This document shows positions 8,116 through 60,817 of a DNA stretch of 64,000 nucleotides, piece after piece. The notes beneath the pieces were generated by a model. That model was not told the origin of the DNA and did no database searches. It saw only the letters and a program-made list of their open reading frames with translations. Location: NCBI GenBank assembly GCA_016207825.1, contig JACQZI010000008.1, positions 204,152-268,151 of the forward strand, read 5' to 3'. A program made the translations under genes and the position numbers. The stretch is from Planctomycetota bacterium (GTDB lineage: Bacteria > Planctomycetota > MHYJ01 > JACQXL01 > JACQZI01). Position 1 is the first letter of the stretch; the number at the start of each line of letters is the position of its first letter.

Positions 8116-8820
8116 TTAACTGCCGAAGGGTTTCCCGTTTAGGATATTCAGGCTTTCCGGTCCGCAATTAAACAGGAGGTCAATTACGGATAGCTCCTCT
8201 ATAAACGGCTCGTATACCTGTTTATATACCGGGTGCCGGAATTCCTGGTAAATACATTTGATGTTATTATCGGTAAACTTATCGGGGTCGATGTAGTCCT
8301 TTCCGTGCTTGCCGTGTATATAGGCGTCAGCCCCGATTCTTTTGCACATGTCGATAATTAAATCAGTTCCCTTACCCTGCGCACCGATAGATGAAGAGCG
8401 GGTAAACTCTGCTTTTATCCCAAGCGCGTTGACAAGGTATTTGATAATGGCCTCCGAAAGCTCAGGTAGCTTTTCCCACCTGGTTTCGTAAATTTTACGG
8501 AAGAATTCCTTGTGCTCCTTGAAATATGGTGCTTTTTGGTAAGCCAGTGAAATCGCCCGCCAGTGCTGGTGCTGCCACGGTTTGGAATTATCTATCATCG
8601 TATCCGTGATGTTCTGGGTGTATTTCCCTTTGGATAACACCGGAACGGTCAGCCACTGCCATCCTTCGCTGGTCCTGATTTTATTCCGGTTAATCCAGCC
8701 GAATGGCCCTCGCTTGACATATTGGACGTTGTCAACGATAACGAACTTATCACAAAGGCTTGCCTTATGGAAAAAGCCTATGTAGGGCAGGTAATTCGGC
8801 TGGTGTCCGCTGATAATCAT
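8116..8820 (-). CDS. WbqC-like family protein
   Basis: A 234-residue protein that begins IISGHQPNYLPYIGFFHK and has the DNVQYVKRGPFGWINRNKI block, the hallmark of the WbqC family (PF08889). WbqC proteins occur in O-antigen gene clusters and are thought to act in amino-sugar or glycan modification; the reaction is not settled. It lies only 3 nt downstream of uvrC on the same strand, so it is likely cotranscribed with uvrC although its function fits the surrounding polysaccharide genes. Confidence 0.82.
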   Translation of the reverse strand: MIISGHQPNYLPYIGFFHKASLCDKFVIVDNVQYVKRGPFGWINRNKIRTSEGWQWLTVPVLSKGKYTQNITDTMIDNSKPWQHQHWRAISLAYQKAPYFKEHKEFFRKIYETRWEKLPELSEAIIKYLVNALGIKAEFTRSSSIGAQGKGTDLIIDMCKRIGADAYIHGKHGKDYIDPDKFTDNNIKCIYQEFRHPVYKQVYEPFIEELSVIDLLFNCGPESLNILNGKPFGS

Positions 8821-55696: not shown

Positions 55697-57778
55697 ATGT
55701 CCACTAAAGCGATTCAGGCAAAAGTTATTATAGAAAAGCCGGAGCAACTCCAAATCCTCTGGCAGGTGCATTCTACTTTTAACCAGTATTTACCTTTTGT
55801 TATCAAGCAGATGTACCGGATGAAACGCGGTGAAGCAGGTAAGGAGTATCAGGAAATATTTAATTCTATTTCTTCCAGCCAGAATGCTGTAGGTAAAATG
55901 GAAGCGGTAACTGATTTAAACTGGGAAACCAGTAAGGCAGATAGTGAAAACGAGAGAGACCAATGGGCAAAAGTCGCGTCTAAACTGGTAAAAGATAAGA
56001 AAATACTATTTGACCGTAAGAAAGAATTACCGAATATTTCCAGTGAATTCCGCCGTAAAATCTTTGAGATGGCATTCCAACTTATTTCCGGACACGATGA
56101 ATTGATGAAGAATTGGAAATCAGAACATAAGAAATGGATAGAAGATAAGAAAAAATGGGAAGAGAAAAATCAGCAATATCTAAAGGTTAGATCAGTATTT
56201 GACCAGTTTGAAAAAGCGGTTGGCGGTAAGGTTACTGGTCGCCGTCAGCGATGGCATAAGTACATAGAATTCCTTAAATCCCATCCTGAATTAGCCGCTT
56301 GGCGTGGCAAAGAAGCCAAAGTGTTAGAAATCTCTGATAAGGCAATGAAGAAAATCGCTAAAGCTCCTCTTCGCAAGAAGAATTCTATTTATGCAAAGGA
56401 GTTCTTCAAGATAAACCCAGAATTAGAAGCACTGGATAGAATTCATAATTACTATGAAAGAGAATTTGTCCGGCGAACCGCTAAAAGGCGCAATTCAGAT
56501 GGATTCAAACATCCGCCTACTTTTACACAGCCTTCTGCAATTACTCATCCGGCTTGGTTCCAGTTTAAGAAGGGACCTGGTTATCAGGCTTTGAATATTA
56601 AAGATAGCTCTGTGGAATTGAATACTTTTAAAGGCTGGCTGAAATTCACCTTTAAGGCAGACCCAAGATTATACCAATTTGAACCAGTCAAAATAGTTAA
56701 GACCACGCGCGGTGGCAAGGAAAAGGAAGCTGATAGCTATGAATGGACTGACTCCAATCTACAATGTAAGCGCCCGGTAGATATTAAGGGGATAAAATTA
56801 GTCTTTAGAAATATTGAGTTTGAGAACAAGACTGGTAATCTTATTAGTGCAGACCCGTATCTTATTTTTACCTGCGATATACCTGATTTGTCCTCCAAGC
56901 ATAAGCTCCGCCAGGATTCCTGCGATAAATATTCATTTGACTGGGTGCGTAAAAGAATAATGAACGACACGGACGGGAAAATACCTGTTACCTGTGCAAT
57001 CGACCTTGGTATCAGGCATTTAGGCGCAGCAACTGTCCGTAAAGATGGCAAGATTATCCGCACCAGAATAATCTGGGAAGATTCCGTCTACGATACTAAT
57101 GATTCTACAAATATTTACCAGCGAGGCCCCGGTCTTGGGCATATTGCTTTACACAAACGCCAGATTAGTAAGATTCGCAGTCTGCGCGGCAAACCGATTA
57201 AGGGAGAAGAATCTTCTATTGAACTCCAACAGCATATTGATAATATGGGCGAAGACCGATTTAAGAAGGGTGCGCGTAAGATTATCCAGTTTGCCCTGGG
57301 ATTAGATGGCAGTAAAAATAATGATATTAAGGCAGATTTAATACTCATAGAGAAACTCGGCGGGAAAACATTTGTGCCTATGGCAGAGAGAGAACATGGG
57401 ATTAATAAAGCCTTGATTAATTGGAATCGCGGCAATTTGGTTACATGGATTAAACGCTTGGCTGTGGATGCCGGGTTAAGAGTGGTGGAAGTTCCGCCTG
57501 CGTATACTTCGCAAGTCTGCAGTAAATGCGGAGAATTTGGCAAGCGATATTCGTATGAGAAAAATAAGGAAAAACAGATAATCGTAAAAGATGACCCATG
57601 TGGTAAACTATTTAGATGCTCTAAACTTGGTTGTTATGCAGATGTTAATGCTGATTATAACGCCTCGGTTAACCTCCATAAGAAGTTCTTTGGTGAAATG
57701 TCTGATTACCAGAACCTCAAAGACAAATTTGAGGAATTTAAGAAGAAAGTAGTTGACTTCTTTGCCGGAAATAAGTAA
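55697..57778 (+). CDS. cas12b: Compact Cas12 effector, type V-B-like
   Basis: A 693-residue RNA-guided nuclease. The RuvC catalytic residues are visible: Asp436 in CAIDLGIRHLG (RuvC-I), Glu552 in LILIEKLGGK (RuvC-II) and Asp649 in ADVNADYNAS (RuvC-III). A zinc knuckle sits between II and III: Cys608/Cys611 (CSKCG) and Cys641/Cys646 (RCSKLGC). HPAWFQFKKG at 284 matches the HPxWxRF motif of Cas12b. Residues 1-270 are a charged helical region, much reduced relative to the REC lobe of Cas12b (family about 1100-1300 residues). With a Cas4-Cas1 fusion and a tracrRNA it fits type V-B, most likely V-B2. The effector should cut DNA next to a PAM, which cannot be deduced here. Confidence 0.82.
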   Translation: MSTKAIQAKVIIEKPEQLQILWQVHSTFNQYLPFVIKQMYRMKRGEAGKEYQEIFNSISSSQNAVGKMEAVTDLNWETSKADSENERDQWAKVASKLVKDKKILFDRKKELPNISSEFRRKIFEMAFQLISGHDELMKNWKSEHKKWIEDKKKWEEKNQQYLKVRSVFDQFEKAVGGKVTGRRQRWHKYIEFLKSHPELAAWRGKEAKVLEISDKAMKKIAKAPLRKKNSIYAKEFFKINPELEALDRIHNYYEREFVRRTAKRRNSDGFKHPPTFTQPSAITHPAWFQFKKGPGYQALNIKDSSVELNTFKGWLKFTFKADPRLYQFEPVKIVKTTRGGKEKEADSYEWTDSNLQCKRPVDIKGIKLVFRNIEFENKTGNLISADPYLIFTCDIPDLSSKHKLRQDSCDKYSFDWVRKRIMNDTDGKIPVTCAIDLGIRHLGAATVRKDGKIIRTRIIWEDSVYDTNDSTNIYQRGPGLGHIALHKRQISKIRSLRGKPIKGEESSIELQQHIDNMGEDRFKKGARKIIQFALGLDGSKNNDIKADLILIEKLGGKTFVPMAEREHGINKALINWNRGNLVTWIKRLAVDAGLRVVEVPPAYTSQVCSKCGEFGKRYSYEKNKEKQIIVKDDPCGKLFRCSKLGCYADVNADYNASVNLHKKFFGEMSDYQNLKDKFEEFKKKVVDFFAGNK

Positions 57779-57784
57779 TATATT

Positions 57785-58020
57785 ATTGCCTTCGGGTGAC
57801 TAACGCGAAGGTGCTATTAGCCTATAGGGTTAATATGCCGAATGGGGTACCACACTTTGTGGTCTTGTGTTAACAACCGCTGGCTGTAAGGGCTTCGGCC
57901 TGATGCAGACTTGAGCGAGTCCCGAAGAAATTCGGGATAAGTGCGGCGGCAAAACCCCGTCGAATCTTTCCTTTAGGTAGCGAGCGGGGGCGGAATTCAG
58001 AGCCCCGCTTACCCGCTCGC
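57785..58020 (+). ncRNA. Putative tracrRNA with split anti-repeat
   Basis: Between cas12 and the leader. Two segments complement the CRISPR repeat: GTCGAATCTTTCCTTTA (57959-57975) pairs with the 3' half of the repeat with one G-U pair and one bulged G, and ATTCAGAGCC (57995-58004) pairs perfectly with GGCTCTGAAT in the 5' half. They are contiguous on the repeat but 19 nt apart here. Upstream are hairpins CCTTCG/CGAAGG, CCACA-CTT-TGTGG and CCCGAA-GAAA-TTCGGG. A perfect stem, GCGAGCGGG/CCCGCTCGC (57980-57988/58012-58020), followed by TTGTTATT may end the transcript. Split anti-repeats are known in Cas12b tracrRNAs. Ends are approximate. Confidence 0.75.
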
Positions 58021-58154
58021 TTGTTATTACTCGTTAAGGCTCAAGGAATTAGAGTGAATAGTGGATTTAGTATTTATAACTAATAACCTGAATGATGCGA
58101 CCATTCGCATTTCGCTCTTTAACAATTTGGAAATTAACGAGTTAAATAAAAGCC
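58021..58154 (+). promoter_or_regulatory. CRISPR leader
   Basis: An AT-rich 134-nt stretch with no gene directly before the first repeat. The most intact repeats are on this side and the broken one on the other, so new spacers enter here and transcription runs left to right. Confidence 0.65.
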
Positions 58155-58589
58155 ATAGGAACGGCTCTGAATAAAGGAAAGGTTCGGACACCGTATTTAG
58201 TGGGCACTTCGACATTTATCGTTTCTCCTTATAGGAACGGCTCTGAATAAAGGAAAGGTTCGGACACAATTCGCGCCTGTAAAATAGACGTTCTCGAAGC
58301 TCATATAGGAACGGCTCTGAATAAAGGAAAGGTTCGGACACTACGCTGAAATGTAAAGGAAAGTTGGTTCCGCATTCGCATAGGAACGGCTCTGAATAAA
58401 GGAAAGGTTCGGACACGGGATGTGCGAATGTGAACGTTTCCAGAATGTCAAGGGATAGGAACGGCTCTGAATAAAGGAAAGGTTCGGACACATGGGTATA
58501 TACGACCCCGAAGAGATAGAATCTATCCATAGGAACGGCTCTGAACCCCGCACATAAAAACCATGTGCGGGACAGGTGACGGAAAGGTT
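58155..58589 (+). CRISPR. CRISPR array, five spacers, 37-nt repeats
   Basis: Five identical 37-nt repeats start at 58155, 58231, 58305, 58380 and 58455, beginning ATAGGAACGG and ending GGTTCGGACAC. Spacers are 39, 37, 38, 38 and 37 nt. The sixth repeat (58529) keeps its first 17 nt, is then interrupted by a hairpin, and resumes with GGAAAGGTT at 58581-58589. The GGACAC end resembles the GGCAC or GCAC ends of Cas12b repeats, which places the crRNA guide 3' of the repeat. The array is short, which may mean young or decaying. Confidence 0.95.
58546..58580 (+). repeat. Hairpin insert in the terminal CRISPR repeat
   Basis: A 35-nt insert replaces TAAA of the last repeat. CCCGCACAT (58547-58555) and ATGTGCGGG (58563-58571) form a perfect 9-bp stem with a 7-nt loop. 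It could be a small mobile palindrome or a terminator for the pre-crRNA. Confidence 0.65.
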
Positions 58590-58728
58590 TTAAATTATCA
58601 CACGGTTGCTTTTTACTTAAGTCATACCACCTAAATTTCCGAATAAACTATCAAGAACACACTTCAGCTATGCGTTTCCTTGACATTGTGTTATAGTGTT
58701 CGTGAGAGGGTATGACTTGGAGTGGTAT
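58590..58728. promoter_or_regulatory. Intergenic region upstream of cas4-cas1 with inverted repeats
   Basis: AAGTCATACC (58619-58628) and its inverse GGTATGACTT (58709-58718) flank the region; GAACAC and GTGTTC form a second inverted pair. TTGACA at 58679 is present but no good -10 at 17 nt is seen. Candidate operator for the adaptation genes. Confidence 0.35.
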
Positions 58729-60501
58729 ATGCCCAGCAATACAGAAAATCTGCCTGTTTATTGTCTCAATGCCTTTGTCTATTGTACACGTAGGTTTTAT
58801 TATGAATATGTTGAAGGCTTGAGTGTCGTTAATGACGCGGTAGCTGATGGCCAGATAAAACACCGCCGGGTAGACGAAGGCGTTGGCAAAACGACCGCCC
58901 CGGACGAAGAGACACTACAGACCCGCAGTTTCCATCTTTCGTCAGAGAAATACGGCATCACCGGTAAGATAGATGTTTTAGAAGAAAAGGATAGCGAATG
59001 TTATCCGGTAGAATATAAGAAACGAGCCTGTCCCCGTGACCAGAACGACCAGCCTTTTGTCTGGGATAATGATAAGATTCAACTCTGCGCCCAGGCATTA
59101 CTGCTGGAAAGCAATAATTATGGGAATATAGCCAAAGGCTATCTTTATTACGTTGGCTCTAAGATACGGGTTGAAGTCGTTTTTGATGATACACTACGGC
59201 AGAAGACAATAGAGACCATTCAATCCGCCCGCGCCTTAGCCGATAGCGATAAAATTCCTGAACCGCTTAAAGATGATAACCGATGTATCCACTGTTCGCT
59301 TCTGCCTATCTGTTTGCCTGAAGAAACCGGCGCGATAAAATTACCACCAGACCCCGCCAAACCCATCAGACGGATTATCCCAGAAAAGTCAGAGGGCTAT
59401 GTGGCTTATCTCAACCACCAGGGGGCGCGGGTCACCAAGAAAGGCGAGAATCTGGTTATCCTTGATTCCAAGGGCGAGAAATTGCAGGAACTTCATCTTT
59501 ATCATCTGGAACAGATAGTCGTCTTCGGGAATATTTCTATCAGCACACAGGCATTATCCTGCTTACTGGAAAATAATATCCCCATCGTTTATCTTTCCAT
59601 CCACGGCAAGTTTAAGGGCGTAACCACCGGTATTCCGCCTAAGAATATCTCATTAAGAATGGCGCAATATGAGGCGGCGAATAACCAGGCGCTGGCGTTA
59701 GCAATCGCCCGTTCCATCACCGCTACCAAGGTTCATAACCAACGGGTGATGCTGATGAGAAATGCCCAGAATAACACGAAGCAAAGCGGAGTCCCGAATA
59801 ATATCGGGAGTGAAGAAGCCAAATATAAACTCCAACATCTTATTTCGGAATGTGTAAATGCACCTGCTTTGGAATCATTGCTCGGATTTGAAGGCACAGC
59901 CGCACGGTATTATTTTGGCTCGTTCAACGAGATGCTAAAGCGAAGCGACAGTCCCGAAAGATCGGGAATCCAATCGGGATTAAATGGCAATGGTTTTACC
60001 TTTTCCTTTGAGGGCAGGAATAAACGACCGCCGTCTGACCCGGTTAATGCCTTGTTATCTTTTGCATATGCACTATTGGCGAAAGACTGTTTCTCGGCTT
60101 GTTTGACCGTTGGCTTAGACCCGTATTTAGGGTTTTATCACCAGACTAAATATGGCCGTCCGGCATTGGCGCTTGACCTGATGGAAGAATTTCGTCCGAT
60201 TATTGCCGACTCGGTTGTCCTGACGCTTATTAATAACAAGATGGTATCCAACAATGATTTCCTGATTAACAACGGAGCGAAGCGGAGTCCCGATAGCCAT
60301 CGGGGAGGTGCCTGTTACCTTACAGAATCCGGCAGACGTTCTTTCTTTGAGGCGTATGAAAGACGGAGAAATGATGTGGTAACGCATCCGGTGTTTGGCT
60401 ACCAAATGTCCTACGGTCGTGTTCTGGAAACACAGGCTCGTTTACTTGCCAGAGTAATTACCGGCGAAGCACCGGAATATATCGGCTTCAAGGTTAGATA
60501 A
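58729..60501 (+). CDS. cas4-cas1: Cas4-Cas1 fusion
   Basis: 590 residues from ATG 58729; GGAG lies 6 nt upstream, and the longer GTG start at 58696 is rejected. The N-terminal 200 residues are Cas4, a PAM-selecting exonuclease: YCLNAFVYC at the start, VEYKKRACP, QLCAQALLLE and the cysteine cluster CIHCSLLPIC. The rest is the Cas1 integrase with Glu388 in GFEGTAARYYFG, His471 in FYHQTKYGRP, and Asp483/Glu486 in LDLMEEF. Fusions of this kind are typical of type V-B. Three in-frame palindromic inserts lie in the Cas1 part (SGVPNNIGSEEA, SPERSGIQSGLNG, AKRSPDSHRGGA). The catalytic residues are untouched. Confidence 0.93.
   Translation: MPSNTENLPVYCLNAFVYCTRRFYYEYVEGLSVVNDAVADGQIKHRRVDEGVGKTTAPDEETLQTRSFHLSSEKYGITGKIDVLEEKDSECYPVEYKKRACPRDQNDQPFVWDNDKIQLCAQALLLESNNYGNIAKGYLYYVGSKIRVEVVFDDTLRQKTIETIQSARALADSDKIPEPLKDDNRCIHCSLLPICLPEETGAIKLPPDPAKPIRRIIPEKSEGYVAYLNHQGARVTKKGENLVILDSKGEKLQELHLYHLEQIVVFGNISISTQALSCLLENNIPIVYLSIHGKFKGVTTGIPPKNISLRMAQYEAANNQALALAIARSITATKVHNQRVMLMRNAQNNTKQSGVPNNIGSEEAKYKLQHLISECVNAPALESLLGFEGTAARYYFGSFNEMLKRSDSPERSGIQSGLNGNGFTFSFEGRNKRPPSDPVNALLSFAYALLAKDCFSACLTVGLDPYLGFYHQTKYGRPALALDLMEEFRPIIADSVVLTLINNKMVSNNDFLINNGAKRSPDSHRGGACYLTESGRRSFFEAYERRRNDVVTHPVFGYQMSYGRVLETQARLLARVITGEAPEYIGFKVR
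59778..60308 (+). repeat. Three in-frame palindromic elements in cas4-cas1
   Basis: Copies at about 59778-59812 (GCGGAGTCCCGAATAATATC then GGGAG), 59939-59972 (GCGACAGTCCCGAAAGATCG then GGAAT) and 60274-60308 (AGCGGAGTCCCGATAGCCAT then CGGGGAG). All share the core GAGTCCCGA or CAGTCCCGA, a 3-7 nt loop and TCGGGA/CGGGGA. All keep the reading frame open. Confidence 0.75.
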
Positions 60502-60521: not shown

Positions 60522-60535
60522 TAGGGGTGTGTAAA

Positions 60536-60817
60536 ATGAATTATTACATTATCGCCTATGACATCGCCGACCCCAAAAGATTAAACCGCATCCATAAAAC
60601 ACTTAAGGATTACGGCAACCCTTTACAGTTTAGTATCTTTGAGTGTTACTTGACACGTAAGGATTTAATTATACTACAGGATAAATTAGAGAGAATTATC
60701 AATAACGCCGAAGACCGGATTATTGTTCTTGCTTTATGCCCGCCCTGCAAAGACCGGATAACGATTATCGGCAAACAGGAAATGCAGGAGCAACCAAATG
60801 GGGCAGTAGTAGTATAA
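60536..60817 (+). CDS. cas2: Cas2
   Basis: A 93-residue Cas2, the partner of Cas1 in the spacer-integration complex. I use ATG 60536, which gives MNYYIIAYDIADPKRLNRIH, the usual first strand with its Asp; a GTG 9 nt upstream is possible. SIFECYLTRKDL and IIVLALCPPC follow the ferredoxin-like pattern. It ends the plus-strand CRISPR locus; the next gene is convergent. Confidence 0.93.
   Translation: MNYYIIAYDIADPKRLNRIHKTLKDYGNPLQFSIFECYLTRKDLIILQDKLERIINNAEDRIIVLALCPPCKDRITIIGKQEMQEQPNGAVVV

Follow-up and report, generated by a model that had tools for sequence, protein, structure and literature searches.

A predicted tracrRNA with a hairpin inserted into its long anti-repeat at a compact type V-B CRISPR-Cas locus of a planctomycete

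The stretch of planctomycete DNA analysed here (the window, 64,000 nt; all coordinates are positions within it) carries, judged from its sequence, a type V-B (Cas12b) system of compact size. The features of the locus, with the helices of the tracrRNA core given as paired strands, are as follows.

55697-57778, + strand: Cas12b-like effector of compact size (693 aa); RuvC residues D436, E552 and D653 (PADLOC, alignment, AlphaFold/Foldseek)
57753-57781, + strand: candidate promoter of the tracrRNA where the effector ends, the promoter-like TTGACT-17-TAATAT (consensus match only)
57844-57958, + strand: predicted tracrRNA core (covariance model; helix strands in relatives)
57844-57848/57954-57958: P1, closing the core just before the anti-repeat
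57849-57863: extra hairpin in the core
57867-57871, + strand: short anti-repeat GTGTT, pairing with repeat positions 33-37 (GACAC)
57877-57882/57944-57949: P2
about 57882-57910: P3
57919-57937: P4 hairpin
57961-57975, + strand: AR1, the first part of the long anti-repeat, able to form 15 bp with repeat positions 18-32
57979-58021, + strand: inserted hairpin, then TGTTATTAC; stems of 10 bp (outer, 57979-57988/58012-58021) and 5 bp (inner, 57989-57993/58005-58009)
57995-58004, + strand: AR2, the rest of the long anti-repeat, ATTCAGAGCC; it lies in the hairpin loop and is the complement of repeat positions 9-18
58155-58491, + strand: CRISPR array, five identical 37-nt repeats
58529-58590, + strand: degenerate sixth repeat with a hairpin inserted after CTGAA
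58696-60501, + strand: Cas4-Cas1 fusion (Pfam Cas_Cas1 1.6e-90, Cas_Cas4 8.2e-17; NCBIfam cas4g_cas1g 2.6e-199)
60527-60817, + strand: Cas2 (Pfam CRISPR_Cas2 2.8e-21)

Cas4, Cas1, Cas2 and an array are thus all present, as in type V-B; the effector, by PADLOC and structural matches, is of the Cas12b type with a single RuvC nuclease; and both short and long repeat/anti-repeat duplexes can be drawn for the tracrRNA at the level of sequence and pairing. The effector matches the PADLOC Cas12b models at E=3.6e-161, and D436, E552 and D653 are invariant across seven effectors in an alignment of relatives. The best Foldseek matches of its AlphaFold model (mean pLDDT 77.6, pTM 0.58) are BthC2c1 (5WTI, E=3.4e-18) and AacC2c1; normalised by query length, the global TM-scores of the four leading matches are a modest 0.43-0.53. 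Against the NCBIfam Cas12b equivalog it scores 62.9 bits, under the 150-bit cut-off, which sets it apart from standard full-length Cas12b; its 693 aa compare with about 1100 aa in Cas12b (C2c1). Going by the PADLOC Cas12b models of 664-720 positions, we take this compact Cas12b-type effector to be possibly V-B2-like. The host genome has a gene for RNase III, and the only Rfam family above its gathering score in the window was RNase P, the tracrRNA being without a match.

Related effectors were found in seven other planctomycete genomes (G145, G287, G578, G605, G653, G659 and G1009), with an array downstream in six of them, the G145 contig ending without one. Two further genomes with effector matches, G401 and G724, yielded no tracrRNA, as their contigs stop at or just past the effector. 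The matches L003 and L004 were taken as effector relatives, and L005-L013, being weak and partial, were left out. The first genome-contig scan and two viral-contig scans gave no relatives, a third viral-contig scan matched the query in its C-terminal part only, and the search of phages and plasmids returned nothing useful. In G287, two overlapping ORFs that look transposase-like by eye (L016, 5366-6414) lie directly upstream of the effector, which has an array; no adaptation genes were noticed nearby.

The intergenic regions of these relatives align in parts, and a covariance model trained on four of them (G1009, G605, G578 and G653), with the window left out, picks up the tracrRNA of the window at 57852-57966 (E=2.6e-4, 169 kb searched). 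The same search gave no report for G145, G287 and G659, whose homology rests on position and pairing for that reason. Against 397 Phycisphaerae genomes the model matched three training loci only, and at whole-genome scale in the class of the window nothing rose above threshold; this includes the window's own genome, where its match falls under the reporting threshold, a point that counts against the reading favoured below. The helix strands of the core pair in relatives despite changed bases, P2 and P3 among them (hand alignment, with three P1 pairs entered for G1009). Promoter-like sites comparable to the one at the effector's end occur near the effector stop in relatives and are better than shuffles in some. 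The region probably encodes the tracrRNA of the compact type V-B system. A first-pass annotation had proposed a tracrRNA at 57785-58020, and the covariance-model match, the homologous loci and the adjoining Cas12b-like effector and array all bear this out.

Two segments of the region, 57959-57975 and 57995-58004, can pair with the 37-nt repeat and lie 19 nt apart. The longest exact match to the reverse-complemented repeat is CTTTCCTTTA (10 nt), followed in collinear order by TTCAGAGCC (9 nt); in 3000 dinucleotide shuffles of the intergenic region the first match was reached by 0.9% and the second by none, and for the exact second 9-mer to occur in the 60 nt that follow, P=0.0002. The split anti-repeat with its 19-nt separator GGTAGCGAGCGGGGGCGGA (57976-57994) and the GC stem was correctly placed in the first-pass annotation, and the two segments do pair about 26 bases, as it had counted. 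It missed a third, the short anti-repeat at 57867-57871. An equivalent 5-bp pairing to the 3' end of the repeat is found between P1 and P2 in every one of the seven loci whose repeat is known, and in G659 it has changed on both sides, CTGTC facing a repeat that ends in GACAG. Since such a segment arises by chance with a frequency of 0.036 when the window junction is shuffled, the case for the short anti-repeat rests on this recurrence across loci. The long duplex, too, is stronger than nearly all shuffles in each of the seven. The repeat would accordingly be divided into positions 1-8 (free), 9-18 (AR2), 18-32 (AR1) and 33-37 (short anti-repeat), position 18 fitting either part of the long one. 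In relatives a conserved 3' tail, TTTGACAAG, could pair with the region of the short anti-repeat, a pairing that we do not claim.

A hairpin splits the long anti-repeat. The GC stem around the second segment had been noted before and stands, with the correction that it consists of 10 bp and a further, inner 5 bp; the second segment is its loop. All told there are 15 bp and an 11-nt loop, which AR2, complementary to the repeat at 10 of 10 positions, fills almost exactly; the stretch that follows is T-rich. The hairpin is predicted at -27.1 to -27.6 kcal/mol (outer stem alone -19.4) and forms with P=0.999 both alone and with the repeat. Among the loci compared it is found inserted in the long anti-repeat in the window only: in G1009, G578, G605, G653 and G659 the long anti-repeat is contiguous or at most bulged, and in G287 it is broken by unpaired stretches without a hairpin. 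The continuation of the anti-repeat over 10 nt (P=0.001) is likewise matched by no relative, the nearest being G578 with 7 nt (P=0.047) and G1009 with 6 nt (P=0.05). Several relatives have, by eye, a GC-rich hairpin after the anti-repeat. An origin of the insert from a repeated element was rejected on the 320-kb contig, where its arms occur only here. The insertion is unusual and so far confined to a single lineage, in a tracrRNA that is itself of a known kind.

In Cas12b guide RNAs, a 5-bp short duplex is combined with a long duplex of about 30 bp, and the intervening bulge can be removed without loss of activity (PMC11246509). The locus shares with those of BhCas12b and BthCas12b (PMC11246509) a guide-adjacent 5-bp short anti-repeat, an interrupted long one and a Cas12b-like effector; where the known tracrRNAs have a bulge, it has a 15-bp hairpin that carries the remaining anti-repeat in its loop. 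Its tracrRNA is best read as the published Cas12b design in which the bulge has become a hairpin. In the Cas12f1 tracrRNA, the loop of stem 3 forms AR:R duplex 1, and this loop duplex positions the guide (PMC8053092). In both systems a stem loop supplies an anti-repeat segment; the loop in the window, unlike that of Cas12f1, complements the guide-distal part of the repeat, and the effector is nearer to Cas12b than to Cas12f by sequence model and fold.

The reading that we favour runs as follows. Transcription would probably start from a putative promoter where the effector gene ends, and the RNA would end at the hairpin. The 5-bp short anti-repeat in the P1/P2 junction would bind the 3' end of the repeat, next to the guide, and the 15-bp long anti-repeat just after P1 would also bind the repeat. 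The stable hairpin that interrupts the long anti-repeat would stay folded, sitting where several relatives have their GC-rich hairpin, and its AR2 loop would probably make a third, pseudoknot-like contact with the pre-crRNA, which could, for example, give RNase III enough duplex. The loop contact is favoured because opening the inner 5 bp costs 7.7 kcal/mol, less than the -15.2 kcal/mol gained by AR2 pairing, values that ignore pseudoknot and loop-strain penalties; against it, 10 bp formed within an 11-nt loop would need the inner stem to be opened. We give a probability of about 0.85 to a tracrRNA with short and long anti-repeats whose hairpin stays folded, and odds barely better than even to the whole, loop contact included. 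The hairpin is more likely an enlarged bulge or a 3' cap than a switch, its loop being a possible third crRNA contact.

It could also be that AR2 is a relic, left behind when an inserted hairpin split a contiguous anti-repeat, and that AR1 and the short anti-repeat suffice, AR2 having no role. Such a history would fit the contiguous long anti-repeat of most relatives, the degenerate sixth repeat, which is likewise interrupted by a hairpin at almost the same point, and the stable duplex that AR1 yields alone. It fits less well with an AR2 that is complementary to the repeat throughout and takes up nearly the whole loop, or with the pairing of this same part of the repeat in relatives, and we consider it possible but on the unlikely side.

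A competition switch, as proposed in the first-pass annotation, fares worse. There, pairing with crRNA and folding of the hairpin were held to compete for the same bases, so that AR2-crRNA pairing would exclude terminator folding and crRNA supply would set tracrRNA length. AR2 does lie within the hairpin loop, a T-rich stretch follows, no promoter-like site is listed between tracrRNA and array, making read-through into the array possible, and AR2 is predicted to pair with the repeat before the 3' arm is made (P=0.999 for a transcript ending at 58004), which leaves room for a co-transcriptional effect. An attenuator or terminator switch depends on mutually exclusive base pairing, but AR2, being loop, has no base in either stem, so its pairing and the stem are not exclusive; pairing of the loop would open the inner 5 bp only and need not break the 10-bp outer stem. 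When the region is co-folded with the repeat, as the annotation had suggested, the hairpin is kept (P=0.999), AR1 is paired (P about 1) and AR2 is unpaired (P=0.000, as for a transcript ending at 58021). The arrangement was moreover seen in none of the relatives, and we regard the switch as improbable. No better are the prospects of a crRNA-sensing loop, in which nascent AR2 would capture pre-crRNA before the 3' arm and so alter termination or read-through into the array. The idea that the two segments resemble the repeat by coincidence, with no tracrRNA here, is already contradicted by the shuffles (0 of 3000) and the covariance-model match.

V-B2 is in use as a variant name within type V-B (PMC10137550); in the open literature searched we found no description of a V-B2 tracrRNA, nor of one for compact (about 700 aa) Cas12b effectors. 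The locus gives a tracrRNA model for the latter, and it suggests that a large structured insertion can be accommodated in the long anti-repeat. This may help in designing guides and in addressing which stretch of the duplex is there for RNase III and which for Cas12b.

Several minor observations concern the surrounding sequence. In the degenerate sixth repeat (58529-58590), the hairpin CCCGCACAT...ATGTGCGGG stands at nearly the same repeat position as the split in the anti-repeat. In G1009 a repeat-like TATTTTGATTAACTGACAC, possibly a pseudo-repeat, follows the tracrRNA anti-repeat (L031, about 8500-8520). Four relatives (L024, L026, L027 and L031) share a conserved inverted repeat, GCGAGTGCG...CTCGC, between tracrRNA and array, and in L024 and L027 GCGAGTGCG is found again directly ahead of the first repeat. 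The Cas4-Cas1 gene contains, in frame, copies of a palindrome, GTCCCGA...TCGGGA (59776-59808, 59951-59970 and 60272-60304), which also forms hairpin P4 of the tracrRNA (57919-57937); there are 12 palindromes of this type on the 320-kb contig, and a related motif is enriched in the window.
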